Source: an uncultured Clostridia bacterium
Lineage (GTDB): Bacteria; Bacillota; Clostridia; Oscillospirales; CAG-272
DNA length: 64,000 nucleotides
Direction of reading: 5' to 3'
Assembly (NCBI GenBank): GCA_947626065.1
Contig: CANQQT010000002.1
Coordinates: 1 to 64,000, forward strand
Position numbers and translations under genes: made by a program. Under the pieces are notes generated by a model, which was not told the origin of the DNA, did not search any database, and saw only the letters and a program-made list of their open reading frames with translations. Below, one piece after another: positions 18,647 through 25,281 of this stretch (positions within the stretch are counted from its first letter, which is position 1; every line of letters starts with the position of its first letter).

Positions 18647-19756
18647 TTACCCGCGCGGAGTCTTACATTCTCCCCTCATGAAGGAAAGAACCGTCTGATA
18701 GTCGCGGCTCCCCTCCTCCATGGGGACCGGTCGCCACTCGGTGTTGCGGCTTCCGGTATATTCGTAGACGGGAATGATGCGGGAATCCTCGTAGAGGATT
18801 TCCCCTTCACAGACCGTCAGAAGCTTCTGATAAATCACAGTGAACCGGTCGTCGGTGGGAGAGCCGCCGAAGATGAAATTGCCGAGGGAGTAGACGATGT
18901 CGGCCCCGTGATAAGTTTCAATCGGCTGAAGAACGTGGGGATGGTTGCCGATGACAAGGTCGGCCCCGGCGTCGACCAGCTTGCGGGAGGCCCGCACTCT
19001 CCATGCGTCGGGTTCGTATTTCCGTTCGGTTCCCCCGTGGTAGTAGATAATCTGATAGTCAGAGATCTTTTCAAGCTCGGCGAGCTTTCCCGAGAGGGCC
19101 ACCGTGCGATATTCTCCCCACATACCCGTCATATAGACGGCGATTTTCACCCCGTACTTTTCAAAAATCACCGGATGGTCGGAGTCGCCCCAGAGAACAC
19201 CGGCCTCCTCCAGCGCCTTTTTGGTATCCTCCGCCCCCGCCGTTCCGTAGTCGCCGCTGTGGTTGTTGGAGACCGAAACGGCCTCCACGCTTCCCGCCGT
19301 GAAAACCTGCGCGTTTTTCGCGGGGCTTTTATACCAATAGGCGGGGGAATAGTTCTTATAGACCTCGGTAAGGGGCCGGTCGGTAAAGACATTTTCGCAG
19401 TTTCCGACCGTGAAGTCGTCGGAGGAAAAAATATCGTACACTCCCGAGAAGAAGTGGGAGGGATCGACCGTCTCCGCTACGCCGTTGAAGGTTTTGGGGC
19501 CGGTTTTCCCTTTGAAGGAGGCGATCATGCAGTCCCCGACGAAGGAGAGCACGATGGTGTGAAGCGCCTGCGGAGGCTCCCATTCGGTCGGCTCCGCTCC
19601 GAGGTGAGGGGAAGCCTCCGGCTTCCCACCGTCGGGGGCAAGAGGCACCGCCGGACGGTCGACCGCATAGGCGACCGGATCGCTCGCCGTTCCGCATCCG
19701 AAAAAAACCGCGAGCAAAAGAGCGAGAAGAAGTGCCGCCGCAATTTTTCCCTTCAT
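18647..19756 (-). CDS. CapA family protein (poly-gamma-glutamate capsule biosynthesis-like metallophosphatase fold), lipoprotein
   Basis: LSFVGDCMIAS..., SVSNNHSGDYGTAGAEDTKKALEEAGV, DLVIGNHPHVLQPIETYHGADIVYSLGNFIFG; N-terminal lipobox-like AVFFGCGTA. Confidence 0.92.
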   Translation of the reverse strand: MKGKIAAALLLALLLAVFFGCGTASDPVAYAVDRPAVPLAPDGGKPEASPHLGAEPTEWEPPQALHTIVLSFVGDCMIASFKGKTGPKTFNGVAETVDPSHFFSGVYDIFSSDDFTVGNCENVFTDRPLTEVYKNYSPAYWYKSPAKNAQVFTAGSVEAVSVSNNHSGDYGTAGAEDTKKALEEAGVLWGDSDHPVIFEKYGVKIAVYMTGMWGEYRTVALSGKLAELEKISDYQIIYYHGGTERKYEPDAWRVRASRKLVDAGADLVIGNHPHVLQPIETYHGADIVYSLGNFIFGGSPTDDRFTVIYQKLLTVCEGEILYEDSRIIPVYEYTGSRNTEWRPVPMEEGSRDYQTVLSFMRGECKTPRG

Positions 19757-19841: not shown

Positions 19842-21161
19842 CTATCCTTCGATCTCCTCGAGTGAGAAATCCTCCCCGCCGTCCTCCGGCTCCTTTTTCT
19901 GAAAGACGGTTTCCCCGACGACGCTTTTGAAATCCGCCTCGGGATTCTGATAGAGAATGTTGAGAACCGAGAGATAATCGCGTAAAATTTCCCGTGGCGT
20001 CACCATCGTGTCGGCTCCCGTCCTGCTCAGGCACTCCTTGAGGAAGCTCGCCAGCTCCTCCTCCGTCACCCGGGGCTCCCAGCCGAAATTCATTCCGTGG
20101 AGCTTTGTAATCCTTGTGATCAGGGCGAAAAGCTCGTTGTCGGAGAGGCGGCGGAGACGGATCACCGGCCCCAGCATATCCCGGTATTCCCCGTTTCCGA
20201 AGCGGCCGTCGGCCAGACGGGAGCGGAGGGCTTCGTAGCTGAAGAGGCCCCGCCTTGTGTCCTCAAGAAAGGGCGGCGTCCCGCCGAGAAGGATTCCGAG
20301 CCCCGGAGCCCTTCCCTGAAGGGTGTCGTTGAACATCGAAAGAATCTTTTCGTAGTTGTTTTCCCGCCCGATCCGGTTGGGGATTTTATAGAGGTTGACG
20401 CACTCGTCGATGAAGACGATCAGGCCCTGATAGCCGATTTTCCGGACAAATTCCGCGTAGAGCTTGATGGTGTCGTACCAGTTGTCGTCGTTGATGATCG
20501 AGCCGACGCCGAGGTCGGCGCGCGCCTCCGTCTTCGTCGCATATTCCCCGCGAAGCCAGCGCATACAGCGGCTTTTTTCCTCCTCATCGTCTGAACAGGA
20601 GGCGCGGTAATACCTGTTCACCACCGCGGCGAAGTCAAAGCCTCCCACGTTATTTTCCAGCTCCCGCGACAGCGAGAAGACGCGGCGGGTCACCCCGTCC
20701 TCAAATTCCTTTGTGCCGGGGAGCGCACCGGAGGAGGCGACCTCCCCCTGCACGGAGGAGAGCCATTTGGCGATGATCTGCCCGAGCGCACCGCCCTCCG
20801 GCGAGGTCTTGGAGGCCATGTTGCGAATCAGCTCCCGGTAGGTGGCGATGCCGGTTCCCTTCCCACCGCAGATTCTTCTCTCAGGGGAGAGATCGCAGTC
20901 GGCGCAGATAAAGCCGCGCTCCAGCGCGTACCCCCGAATCAGCTGCATGAGAAAGCTCTTGCCGCTTCCGTATTTGCCGATGATAAAGCGCATCGAGGAG
21001 CCGCCGTCGCTCACCGTCTCAAGATCGGACAGAAGGGCTGCGATTTCGGCGTCCCGCCCGATGGCTATATAGGGCGCTCCCAGCCTCGGAACCACCCCCG
21101 CCGAAACCGACCCGATCAGGGAGGCAAGAATCCGTTTGGGTACCGTTATTTTTTCATCCAT
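19842..21161 (-). CDS. BrxD/DUF2791-like P-loop ATPase (Shango SngB-like candidate)
   Basis: FIIGKYGSGKSFLMQLIRGYALERGF Walker A; YQGLIVFIDECVNLYKIPN Walker B; overall ATP-binding protein of the BREX BrxD type; overlaps upstream TerB gene by 16 nt. Confidence 0.75.
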   Translation of the reverse strand: MDEKITVPKRILASLIGSVSAGVVPRLGAPYIAIGRDAEIAALLSDLETVSDGGSSMRFIIGKYGSGKSFLMQLIRGYALERGFICADCDLSPERRICGGKGTGIATYRELIRNMASKTSPEGGALGQIIAKWLSSVQGEVASSGALPGTKEFEDGVTRRVFSLSRELENNVGGFDFAAVVNRYYRASCSDDEEEKSRCMRWLRGEYATKTEARADLGVGSIINDDNWYDTIKLYAEFVRKIGYQGLIVFIDECVNLYKIPNRIGRENNYEKILSMFNDTLQGRAPGLGILLGGTPPFLEDTRRGLFSYEALRSRLADGRFGNGEYRDMLGPVIRLRRLSDNELFALITRITKLHGMNFGWEPRVTEEELASFLKECLSRTGADTMVTPREILRDYLSVLNILYQNPEADFKSVVGETVFQKKEPEDGGEDFSLEEIEG

Positions 21162-23347
21162 TCTTCGATCTCCTCTCTGTAGTCCTCAAGGACTGCATAG
21201 CCCTCTCCCGTCGGCTCCACCGCCGTATCGGAAAGAACCTCGTAGAGCGTCTCGTTGATTTTGTCGCAAAGCGCGTCGGGGAGAAGATTCTCCCGTCTGG
21301 CGACGGCGCGGAAGGCGGGAAGGTCTCCCCCCAAAAGCGCGCCGAGGGCCTCCCGGACCGCCGCGTCTCCGTCGGCTTTTCCGCCGGTTTTCCCGGAGGT
21401 CTTTTTGTCGATCTTTTCGTCGGTTTCCCCGGCGGTCTTTTCGTCGACTCTTCTGCCGATTTCCCCGGCAGTCTCTTCATCGGCCCTTTCGCCGGTCTTT
21501 TCCCCGGCTTTCTCAGCGGTCTTTTCGCCGGTCATCCCGTCGGTTTTTTCGTCTGCCGTCTGCCGGAAGGCATCGGCGCCTTCTTCGGTCTGCGGATTTC
21601 CGTCGCTTGACGGTTTTCCGCTACTTGACGGATTTCCGCCGCTTTCTTCCCCTTCGACAAGAAGCTCTGTCGTCTCCCACGCCTTTTCCTCCAGCGCTTT
21701 TGCGTAGTCGAGGGAAAATTCGCTGTGCTCCGCCTCGTAGAGCTTTTCGTATTCCTTTGCCTCCTCCTCTTCCGGGGAGAGCTTTTTGGCCTCCCTTTTG
21801 AGGGGCGCGAAATATTCGTCGATCCCCTTTTTCAGGGGAAGGGCAAGGTCTGGCGTGTGAAAGCGGCTCCGGATACCGAGCAGAGACCGCACCTGATTTT
21901 CCGCATATTTGACGGTGTTGGTCACCATATACCGGAGCTCCACCGAACGGGAGCAGGAGAGATATTCCAGTCGGATTTCCCTTTTTATCGGATAGGAGCA
22001 GACCGCCCCCGCATAGGCGATTCTTTTCACCTTGGCGGGCACCATCGCGCCGCTTCCGATGGGCGCAAACACCGTCTGCTTCCTCTTCTCCGCCTGCCCC
22101 ACCGCGTAGAGGAAGGCGCCTTTGATATGCGTCTCAAACAAATCCTTCGTCTGCGGCGTGTAAAATTTTCCCTTCCGGAAATCGTAGCCGGAGGCATAGG
22201 CGAAGAGCGCCGAAGCAAAAGGAGAGGGGGAGGCCGGGTCATAGCCGACGTAAAACTCCTTGAGGGAGGCCTTTTCGGTAATGCTTCCGAGAAAATCTCC
22301 GTAGAGCTCCGCGGGCGGCGGAACGCGGTGAAGGAGACAATAATCGCAGAGCCATTCCGAGAGAATGCGGTCGAGATAGGGATAGGCCTTCCGATAGGCC
22401 CGCCAGAGGCTGCAAAGGAGCCTTGCCCCCTCCTCTCCCTTCACCCGATCGGGAAGGTTGAGAATTTCGTAGATAAAGAGGAGAAGGTAGGAATAGTCGA
22501 CCGGCGGATATTCCCCACCCCGGACAAGGCTTCGCCAATAGAAATAATAGGAGAGCTGCGGAGGGGAAAGCTGCACGTACTGCGGCGTATAGGAGAAGAA
22601 GGGAACCGGCGCGCAGGGGGAGCCGCTTTCCTCAAAATAGGCCTCGGCGTCGGATAGAAACCGGCTGTAAAAGGAATATCGACAAGGGGGGATATAGACC
22701 GAAACCTTGCGGATCAGCGGATTCCCCTCCGGCGAATATTCTAAAACCGGCGACTCCGGATCGGCCTCTGCCCTCCCCGGATTTGCGGCGCCTCCGAAAA
22801 GGGGCGTCCCCTCGCCAACCGGAAATCTTTCGACCGGCGCGGTCGCGGTTTTGCTTTCGGCCTTTTTCAGGGCCTCCCGCGCAAGGAGGAGACGGTTTTC
22901 GGCGCTTTTGCCGGGCGCGGGCGCCGTGGGAAGGCGTTCCCCGTCCTCCCGGTGGGACTCTTCCCCCACCGAAACCGAGACGGTCACCCCCTCCGCCTCT
23001 GGGGCGGCTGCACCTGCCGAAACCGAAACAGATACGCCAACCGAAACCGGAGTAGGCGCTTCCCCATCGGATGACGGTTCGGCGAGGTCTTGAAGAGAAA
23101 GTTTCTCTTGAGGGATCCTCTCATCGGCGGCAAAATCCCCGCCGTTTGATGAGGAAGCGGCGATTTCGCGCGAGGGGATGGCCTCTTCCTTTAAGGAGGC
23201 CTCGGCCTTTCCCTCTTGGGGGAAAAAAATTTCCACCGCCTCGGTATCGGAGGAGAAGGGGGCCCGGCCCTTGCGCTTGGGAAGCATTCCCTCAATATCC
23301 CAGAAGCTGTCGGCAAGGGAGAGCCTGTCGTCTCTCTTTTCCTTCAT
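21146..23347 (-). CDS. TerB_N / TerB_C domain protein (Shango SngA-like candidate)
   Basis: YSPEGNPLIRKVSVYIPPCRYSFYSRFLSDAEAYF...YVQLSPPQLSYYFYWRSLVRGGEYPPVDYSYLLLFIYEILN (TerB_N-like); C-terminal FRAVARRENLLPDALCDKINETLYEVLSDTAVE...LEDYREEIEEW (TerB_C-like). Confidence 0.75.
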   Translation of the reverse strand: MKEKRDDRLSLADSFWDIEGMLPKRKGRAPFSSDTEAVEIFFPQEGKAEASLKEEAIPSREIAASSSNGGDFAADERIPQEKLSLQDLAEPSSDGEAPTPVSVGVSVSVSAGAAAPEAEGVTVSVSVGEESHREDGERLPTAPAPGKSAENRLLLAREALKKAESKTATAPVERFPVGEGTPLFGGAANPGRAEADPESPVLEYSPEGNPLIRKVSVYIPPCRYSFYSRFLSDAEAYFEESGSPCAPVPFFSYTPQYVQLSPPQLSYYFYWRSLVRGGEYPPVDYSYLLLFIYEILNLPDRVKGEEGARLLCSLWRAYRKAYPYLDRILSEWLCDYCLLHRVPPPAELYGDFLGSITEKASLKEFYVGYDPASPSPFASALFAYASGYDFRKGKFYTPQTKDLFETHIKGAFLYAVGQAEKRKQTVFAPIGSGAMVPAKVKRIAYAGAVCSYPIKREIRLEYLSCSRSVELRYMVTNTVKYAENQVRSLLGIRSRFHTPDLALPLKKGIDEYFAPLKREAKKLSPEEEEAKEYEKLYEAEHSEFSLDYAKALEEKAWETTELLVEGEESGGNPSSSGKPSSDGNPQTEEGADAFRQTADEKTDGMTGEKTAEKAGEKTGERADEETAGEIGRRVDEKTAGETDEKIDKKTSGKTGGKADGDAAVREALGALLGGDLPAFRAVARRENLLPDALCDKINETLYEVLSDTAVEPTGEGYAVLEDYREEIEEWMKK

Positions 23348-23525
23348 CGGCTCCCCTCCGTTCTTCCGTTTTTTTCGGTATTTCTTATCTTATTATTTTA
23401 CCACAGAAACGTCGGGCTGTCAATGGGAGAAAAAGTCGAAAATGCGGGACGCGCGTTTTTTCCGCGCTGTTTTTCGCATGGTATTTTTTCCCTTCCTTTT
23501 TTCGCGAAAGGCGAAAAGCCGCTAT

Positions 23526-24449
23526 TCAGTCAAAAACCTCTTTCAGCGCCGAAAGCTGTTCCCGCCTGCTCACCGAGGTAATCGGGAGAATCGAGGCGTC
23601 ATAGCCGGTGAGAATTTTGAGAAGGAGGCAGGCCTGCGTTGACTTACCGGAGGCCTTCGCCTCGGCAGAAAGCTCTTCCCAGAGCCTGTCGTTTTCGCGG
23701 TTCCCGTACCGTTTTCTCAGCGTTTCGGTCAGCGCCCCGGCCGCACGCTTTTCAAAATATCCCTTCGCCGTCGCGCCGTAGGGGATAAAGGTCATGCCGG
23801 TCTTACGGAAAAGCGACAGATCGGCGTCCTCAAAGAGCACCAGCGTCGGATCGGGAAGCGCCGGGCAACCGGGATTTTCTTTGGCGGGTGACCAGCGGTT
23901 CGACACGGCGGAAAAGCCGGTAATTCCCTTCTCTTTTGCATAGGCGTCGGCCTCTTCGAGCCGGGCGGCGCTGTAATTGGAGGCCCCGTAGAAGCGGAGC
24001 AGTCCCTCCTTTTTCAGCTCCTCCATCCACGTAAGGATCTCCCCGATCGGAAGGGTCGGGTCGTCTCTGTGGAGCCAGTAGAAATCCACCGTTTCAAGCC
24101 CCAGCGTCCGCAGGCTTTCCTGAAGGTCGTGCCGGATGCAGTCCTTTCTCACCCGCGACACACTCCGGTCGGAAAAGGAATAGTGGCCGCCCTTGGTGGC
24201 GATCACTACCCGTCCCTTGGCCCCTCGGGAGGAGAGCCAGCGCCCTAAAATTTTCTCGCTTATATTCTCGCCGTGGGGCAGCCATCGACCGTAAACGGCG
24301 GCGGTATCGAGAAAATTCCCGCCGAAATCGCGGTATTCGTCAAGAATACGGAAGGACTCCTCCTCGGTGAGGGAATCGCCGAATTTGTCGGCGCCGAGGC
24401 AAACGGGAGATACGATAAGCTCGGTTTTCTCTATTTTGAACGCTTTCAT
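23526..24449 (-). CDS. Aldo/keto reductase
   Basis: VSPVCLGADKFG...DEYRDFGGNFLDTAAVYG...SEKILGRWLSSRG...VVIATKGG...DFYWLHRDDPTLPIGEILTWMEELKKEGLLRFYGASNY. Confidence 0.93.
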   Translation of the reverse strand: MKAFKIEKTELIVSPVCLGADKFGDSLTEEESFRILDEYRDFGGNFLDTAAVYGRWLPHGENISEKILGRWLSSRGAKGRVVIATKGGHYSFSDRSVSRVRKDCIRHDLQESLRTLGLETVDFYWLHRDDPTLPIGEILTWMEELKKEGLLRFYGASNYSAARLEEADAYAKEKGITGFSAVSNRWSPAKENPGCPALPDPTLVLFEDADLSLFRKTGMTFIPYGATAKGYFEKRAAGALTETLRKRYGNRENDRLWEELSAEAKASGKSTQACLLLKILTGYDASILPITSVSRREQLSALKEVFD

Positions 24450-24735: not shown

Positions 24736-24752
24736 AAAAAGGTACAAAAACG

Positions 24753-24845
24753 AACGCGGGGGAGCCTGTAAACAGGCTGAGAGGAAGGTATGACCTTCGA
24801 CCCTTCCACCTGATTTGGATCATGCCAACGTAGGGATGCGGAAAA
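24753..24845 (+). ncRNA. TPP riboswitch (THI element)
   Basis: gGGGGAGCCtgtaaacaggCTGAGAggaaggtatgaccttcGACCCTTCCACCTGATTTGGATCATGCCAACGTAGGGATGC; all THI-box core elements present. Confidence 0.97.
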
Positions 24846-25086
24846 ACCGGAATCGAAACAGGCGGGGCGTCGTGCGGCGGCCCGCGCTCTTTTTTGAGGG
24901 CTTTCCTTCCGCGCACAGAGCCGCGAAACACAAAATTTCCCACGAACCCTGCACGGCATCAGGCACAGGGGAACAAAGTGTAAAAGGCCCCCACGCCGAA
25001 AAGCAAGGCCTCCTGTCGTCAGACCCGAACCGTAAACCGCAAAATTCCCCGGATTTTTCCTCCGGTTTTTATGAAAGGACCCCGTT

Positions 25087-25281
25087 ATGGTAAAAATCAA
25101 CGGCATTTCTTACGACCTCGCCGGGAAAACTGTCGCCGACTATCTTGCCGGAACCGACTTCGGCCCGAACCGCATCGCCGTCGAGAGAAACGGCGTCATC
25201 GTCCGACGCGCCGACTATGCCTCAACCGTCCTCAACGACGGGGACGTCGTCGAAATCGTCCGTTTTGTCGGGGGCGGCTGA
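25087..25281 (+). CDS. thiS: Sulfur carrier protein ThiS
   Basis: 64 aa [23 protein letters not shown]...[14 protein letters not shown]-terminal GGG. Confidence 0.95.

Follow-up and report, generated by a model that had tools for sequence, protein, structure and literature searches.

A probable complete Shango system with its helicase gene encoded apart from sngAB in an uncultured family of gut Clostridia

The Shango anti-phage systems known from Pseudomonas aeruginosa PA14 and from E. coli combine a TerB-type protein (SngA), a PF10923 ATPase (SngB) and a superfamily 2 (SF2) helicase (SngC), as captured by the PADLOC profiles. How, then, should a genome be read in which sngA and sngB lie side by side with no helicase gene next to them? 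Such a pair is found in the window, by which we mean the whole 64,000-nucleotide stretch analysed here (contig CANQQT010000002.1 of the uncultured Clostridia bacterium GCA_947626065.1). The original prediction, made from the letters of the window, assigned the pair to Shango, described it as being without its helicase and considered a minimal two-gene variant, a helicase acting in trans or a role outside defense. Our analysis favors the second of these, with a probability of roughly 0.78: a complete Shango system with sngC outside the operon and its helicase acting in trans. This chromosomal system is inherited mostly vertically and is near fixation in the family.

Results

A full-length SngC helicase is encoded on another contig

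Both proteins of the window are firmly supported by profile searches. SngA (733 amino acids, positions 21146-23347, minus strand) matches the PADLOC SngA profile with an E-value of 4.6e-47 over profile positions 75-527 of 528, and SngB (439 amino acids, 19842-21161, minus strand) matches PADLOC SngB (1.3e-169, 563 bits) as well as PF10923, the BrxC_BrxD family formerly named DUF2791 (1.1e-155), so that the Shango assignment of the pair stands. A genome-wide search with the SngC profile, as had been suggested along with that assignment, returned a single full-length match on contig C17 (12688-15129, 795.5 bits, profile positions 3-714 of 720, 1.8e-239), with the next-best match in the genome reaching 24 bits. 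The corresponding open reading frame (C17, L182, 12685-15162) encodes 825 amino acids and includes DEAD and Helicase_C domains; among the PADLOC families it scores highest for SngC (796 bits), and its core helicase motif residues are invariant (65/65). It is located in the interior of C17 with kilobases of other genes on either side. An amidohydrolase and an FkbM-type methyltransferase lie on its 5' side, and an M23 peptidase and a probable aspartokinase (an amino acid kinase carrying ACT domains) on its 3' side. The missing helicase is thus a local feature of the window, where no helicase gene adjoins the pair, but not a feature of the genome. SngA, SngB and the SngC helicase, the components that Shango requires, are all present, while their co-localization as one operon is not; as sngC lies on another contig, we filed the system as a dispersed variant rather than a canonical locus.

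The Shango operon broke up within the family

To place the locus in context, we surveyed 98 genomes of the family, 75 of them good, and a class-wide sample of 234 good genomes. SngA, SngB and SngC were present in 69, 68 and 67 of the 98 family genomes, respectively, nearly always as single copies, and each was found in 54 of the 75 good ones; class-wide, SngB occurred in 22 of 234. With contig ends checked before a gene pair was called separate, sngB and sngC were adjacent in 36 family genomes, robustly apart in 24 and ambiguous in 4, in which the genes lie near contig ends. Outside the family, in contrast, a full SngC and a true SngB were adjacent in all 14 clear cases (Fisher p 0.003 versus the family). 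The split occurs in G000 as well as in G067, the two genomes of the window's genus, and both loci retain their neighbors within the genus: homologs of the capA-like gene and of the next, UppP-like gene likewise follow sngAB on its 3' side in G067 (tblastn of all frames). The sngA gene has also parted from sngB, in both genomes of genus g18 (G017 and G080, on another contig), G053 and G088, indicating that both operon junctions have been broken in the family. On contig C43 of G053 (L135), sngA lies 3 kb from sngB in divergent orientation.

The dispersed genes are orthologous to those of operon-type relatives in the same family (for example, G002, G011 and G016), in which sngB and sngC are about 100 bp apart rather than on different contigs. 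In single-gene trees, those of SngA, SngB and SngC being quick ones, the SngC proteins of split genomes fall within the family's SngC clade together with operon-borne SngCs (62 rows, Shimodaira-Hasegawa-like approximate likelihood ratio support 98), and the SngC of G000 is sister to that of G067 (support 100). The split or adjacent state changes only 4 to 5 times on the RpoB tree and most split genomes belong to one half of the family, suggesting that breaks of the operon were few and ancient. Tree distances of the three proteins correlate with those of RpoB (0.40-0.52, all genomes) and 25 of 29 same-genus pairs agree in presence where 16.7 would be expected, which fits mostly vertical inheritance. 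Still, the genes are not universal and thus not core in all relatives, with about 17 changes between presence and absence along the RpoB tree of the family; and G006 and G008/G076 hold other Shango types in the SngC tree, which look like separate acquisitions.

Several further loci came up in the survey. Contig C374 of G052 (L133) bears two tandem SngC copies by an SngB fragment, in addition to another SngAB locus and a third SngC, and hence a duplicated Shango. SngABC-like operons in L096 (bin label Methanomethylophilaceae archaeon) and L087 (Desulfovibrionaceae) reflect either distant transfer or misbinning. L067, whose record bears the title Candidatus Colimorpha enterica (Bacteroidales in the NCBI lineage), encodes an SngB 64% identical to that of the window; the label or bin of L067 is probably wrong. 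In another family of the class, G213 encodes an SngB of 620 bits (contig C9:563686-564996), and a full-length SngC was not found in that genome.

SngC and SngAB are retained or lost together

A helicase irrelevant to SngAB would be expected to diverge from it in occurrence wherever the loci are unlinked. Across the family, however, the three genes are almost always retained or lost together, whether adjacent or not. Excluding the adjacent genomes, 30 carried both SngB and SngC, 2 SngB only, 1 SngC only and 29 neither (Fisher 6e-14, uncorrected for phylogeny). Genomes without SngAB had at most weak helicase matches, with G020 as the exception. Within the non-adjacent set, the RpoB tree shows 10 changes of state for SngAB and 10 for SngC. 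Distances in the SngB and SngC trees of split genomes correlate at 0.56, and at 0.45 with RpoB removed (p 0.004), the correlation being higher in adjacent genomes (0.84, and 0.81 with RpoB removed). Between G000 and G067, the ratios of non-synonymous to synonymous substitution rates (0.30 for SngA, 0.15 for SngB and 0.12 for SngC) indicate purifying selection on all three genes.

The genomes therefore support a helicase serving SngAB from a second locus, but several points weigh against this reading. Physical action of SngC in trans is something we infer from the co-retention of the genes. A strict pair test among non-adjacent genomes yielded 6 supported pairs, of which about 4.9 changed the same way and 0 the opposite way (p 0.06), 6 independent pairs being too few for significance. 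Two genomes, each 96% complete, break the pattern: in G039, SngA and SngB are present and SngC was not found, and G020 encodes SngC without SngAB. The named relatives are mostly metagenome bins from animal guts labeled Clostridia or Oscillospiraceae, no defense genes were found beside the Shango loci, and a 2026 review still lists the Shango mechanism as unknown (PMC12926258).

Alternative explanations

Among the alternatives, domestication retains some plausibility, although we regard it as unlikely: Shango would have assumed a general chromosomal role in the family, for example, in DNA repair or the restart of stalled forks, with defense no longer its main use. The high single-copy prevalence in the family compared to the class, the same-genus concordance, the tracking of RpoB by the gene trees and the dispersal of the genes amid metabolic and cell-wall genes, where defense neighbors were not found, would all fit such a role. 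Yet the genes have been lost repeatedly, whole genera included, and are therefore not essential. Moreover, SngA shows the highest amino-acid change rate in every genome pair compared while SngB and SngC are conserved, a pattern resembling that of a recognition component exposed to shifting pressure, and the separate acquisitions show that Shango is still mobile.

A functional two-gene Shango, in which SngAB works without a helicase and the C17 helicase is unrelated to it, is improbable. The lack of a helicase gene next to the pair in the window speaks for this scenario, as does G039, where SngC was not found beside SngAB at 96% completeness, but the C17 protein is a full-length ortholog nested among operon-linked SngCs, and relatives that lost SngAB lost SngC with it; the minimal variant put forward in the original prediction is accordingly contradicted.

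A binning artifact, with C17 stemming from another organism and the genome itself devoid of SngC, is conceivable for an assembly fragmented into 105 contigs; we nevertheless rejected it as highly improbable. Tetranucleotide correlation between the window and C17 (0.94-0.975) matches that within the window (0.95-0.98), as opposed to a median of 0.58 for the loci of other genomes, so contamination is unlikely, and the same split recurs in the independent bin G067, there with conserved neighbors, as well as in G046, G009 and G014, assemblies of about 10-30 contigs each.

Finally, a remnant of the BREX phage defense system, with SngB being BrxD and the helicase BrxHI, was rejected as very improbable. 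PF10923 does span BrxC and BrxD and SngC does match BrxHI as its second family (428 bits), but SngB scores only 154 bits (1.7e-45) as PADLOC BrxD and 156 bits against an NCBIfam BrxD equivalog cut-off of 350, PglZ was not found in the genome and the PF10923 gene is the only one there.

Organization of the window locus

As originally described, the two reading frames overlap by 16 nt (21146-21161, minus strand), the end of sngA covering the start of sngB, and the spacing between both genes is short in nearly all relatives. SngA consists of a low-complexity N-terminus, a folded core, a disordered linker and a C-terminal domain. Its TerB_N (residues 244-343, 22319-22618, minus strand, E 3.4e-15) and TerB_C domains (residues 625-728, 21164-21475, minus strand, E 5e-8) bear out the predicted architecture, while PF05099, the central TerB domain proper, gave no match in the profile search. 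The low-complexity, partly repetitive linker spans approximately residues 570-658 (21374-21640, minus strand; predicted local distance difference test, pLDDT, below 50), with tandem repeats at 21370-21551 and 21593-21644. SngB carries both predicted motifs, Walker A GKYGSGKS (residues 62-69, 20955-20978, minus strand) and Walker B LIVFIDEC (residues 247-254, 20400-20423, minus strand), whose catalytic letters are invariant across 65-67 relatives.

A strong sigma-70-like promoter, TTGACA-17-TAAAAT, matching 11 of 12 consensus bases, is located just 5' of the sngA start (23395-23423, minus strand), so that sngAB is probably transcribed as a unit of its own; the scanned region held 7 sigma-70-like sites versus 1.1 expected. 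The flanks are as predicted, with a capA-like gene (CapA/PGA_cap, 18647-19756, minus strand) following sngB at the place where operon-type relatives carry sngC, and an aldo/keto reductase gene (23526-24449) on the other side, both identified by profile search. Further along the window, an ordinary thiamine pyrophosphate riboswitch (24748-24854, plus strand, 66.7 bits) precedes a thiamine biosynthesis cluster starting near 25145.

Structure models and a possible division of labor

The AlphaFold2 model of SngA residues 190-733 (mean pLDDT 83) comprises a confident helical N-terminal part, the disordered linker and the C-terminal domain. It had no significant whole-chain match in the PDB, but a stretch of it weakly, and merely suggestively, resembles winged-helix DNA-binding domains (E about 1). 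The SngB model (pLDDT 88, predicted template modeling score 0.86) matches the folds of RdrA, ORC/Cdc6 and BrxC with template modeling scores of about 0.3-0.4. At the sequence level, neither SngA nor SngB gave a firm hit in the PDB.

On this basis, SngB may be an ORC/Cdc6-like AAA+ ATPase that assembles on DNA, and SngC an SF2 helicase resembling Lhr and BrxHI, which would translocate on the DNA marked by SngB or unwind it. SngA, the fastest-evolving part, could serve as the adaptor, recognition or licensing component that determines when the other two engage incoming DNA. The three proteins would cooperate in this way despite being encoded at two loci.

Discussion

In PA14, Shango is a three-gene operon in a defense hotspot with tested protection; it is listed in the order TerB protein, ATPase, helicase, and its anti-phage activity is modest (PMC10250203). 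The window shares the order of the first two genes, but its system, read from genomes alone, has a separate sngC locus and is near-fixed in its family. Its SngA, with 733 amino acids and low-complexity parts, is longer than the 528-position PADLOC profile. BrxD and BrxHI of BREX represent homologous ATPase and helicase families whose scores remain far below those for SngB and SngC, and SngC, BrxHI, DruE and DpdJ have been placed in one possibly distinct SF2 clade (PMC12278908). Our literature search found no paper on the Shango mechanism or on dispersed defense genes.

Defense surveys usually demand co-located genes, so that a Shango with a split helicase is expected to be overlooked or recorded as incomplete, and about 40% of the Shango carriers in the family sample would be concerned. 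That the genes are kept together even after separation is natural evidence of the mutual dependence of SngA, SngB and SngC, and the split loci allow a direct test of whether SngC is required. Near-fixation in one family also raises the question of whether a phage defense has turned into a standing chromosomal function. Tentatively, and with less confidence than we place in the complete system itself, we propose that in this one uncultured family of gut Clostridia Shango became near-fixed and vertically inherited, its operon dissolved early and a helicase in trans was long retained, possibly domesticated for genome maintenance. If true, a multi-gene defense system would here have persisted, unusually, without co-localization.
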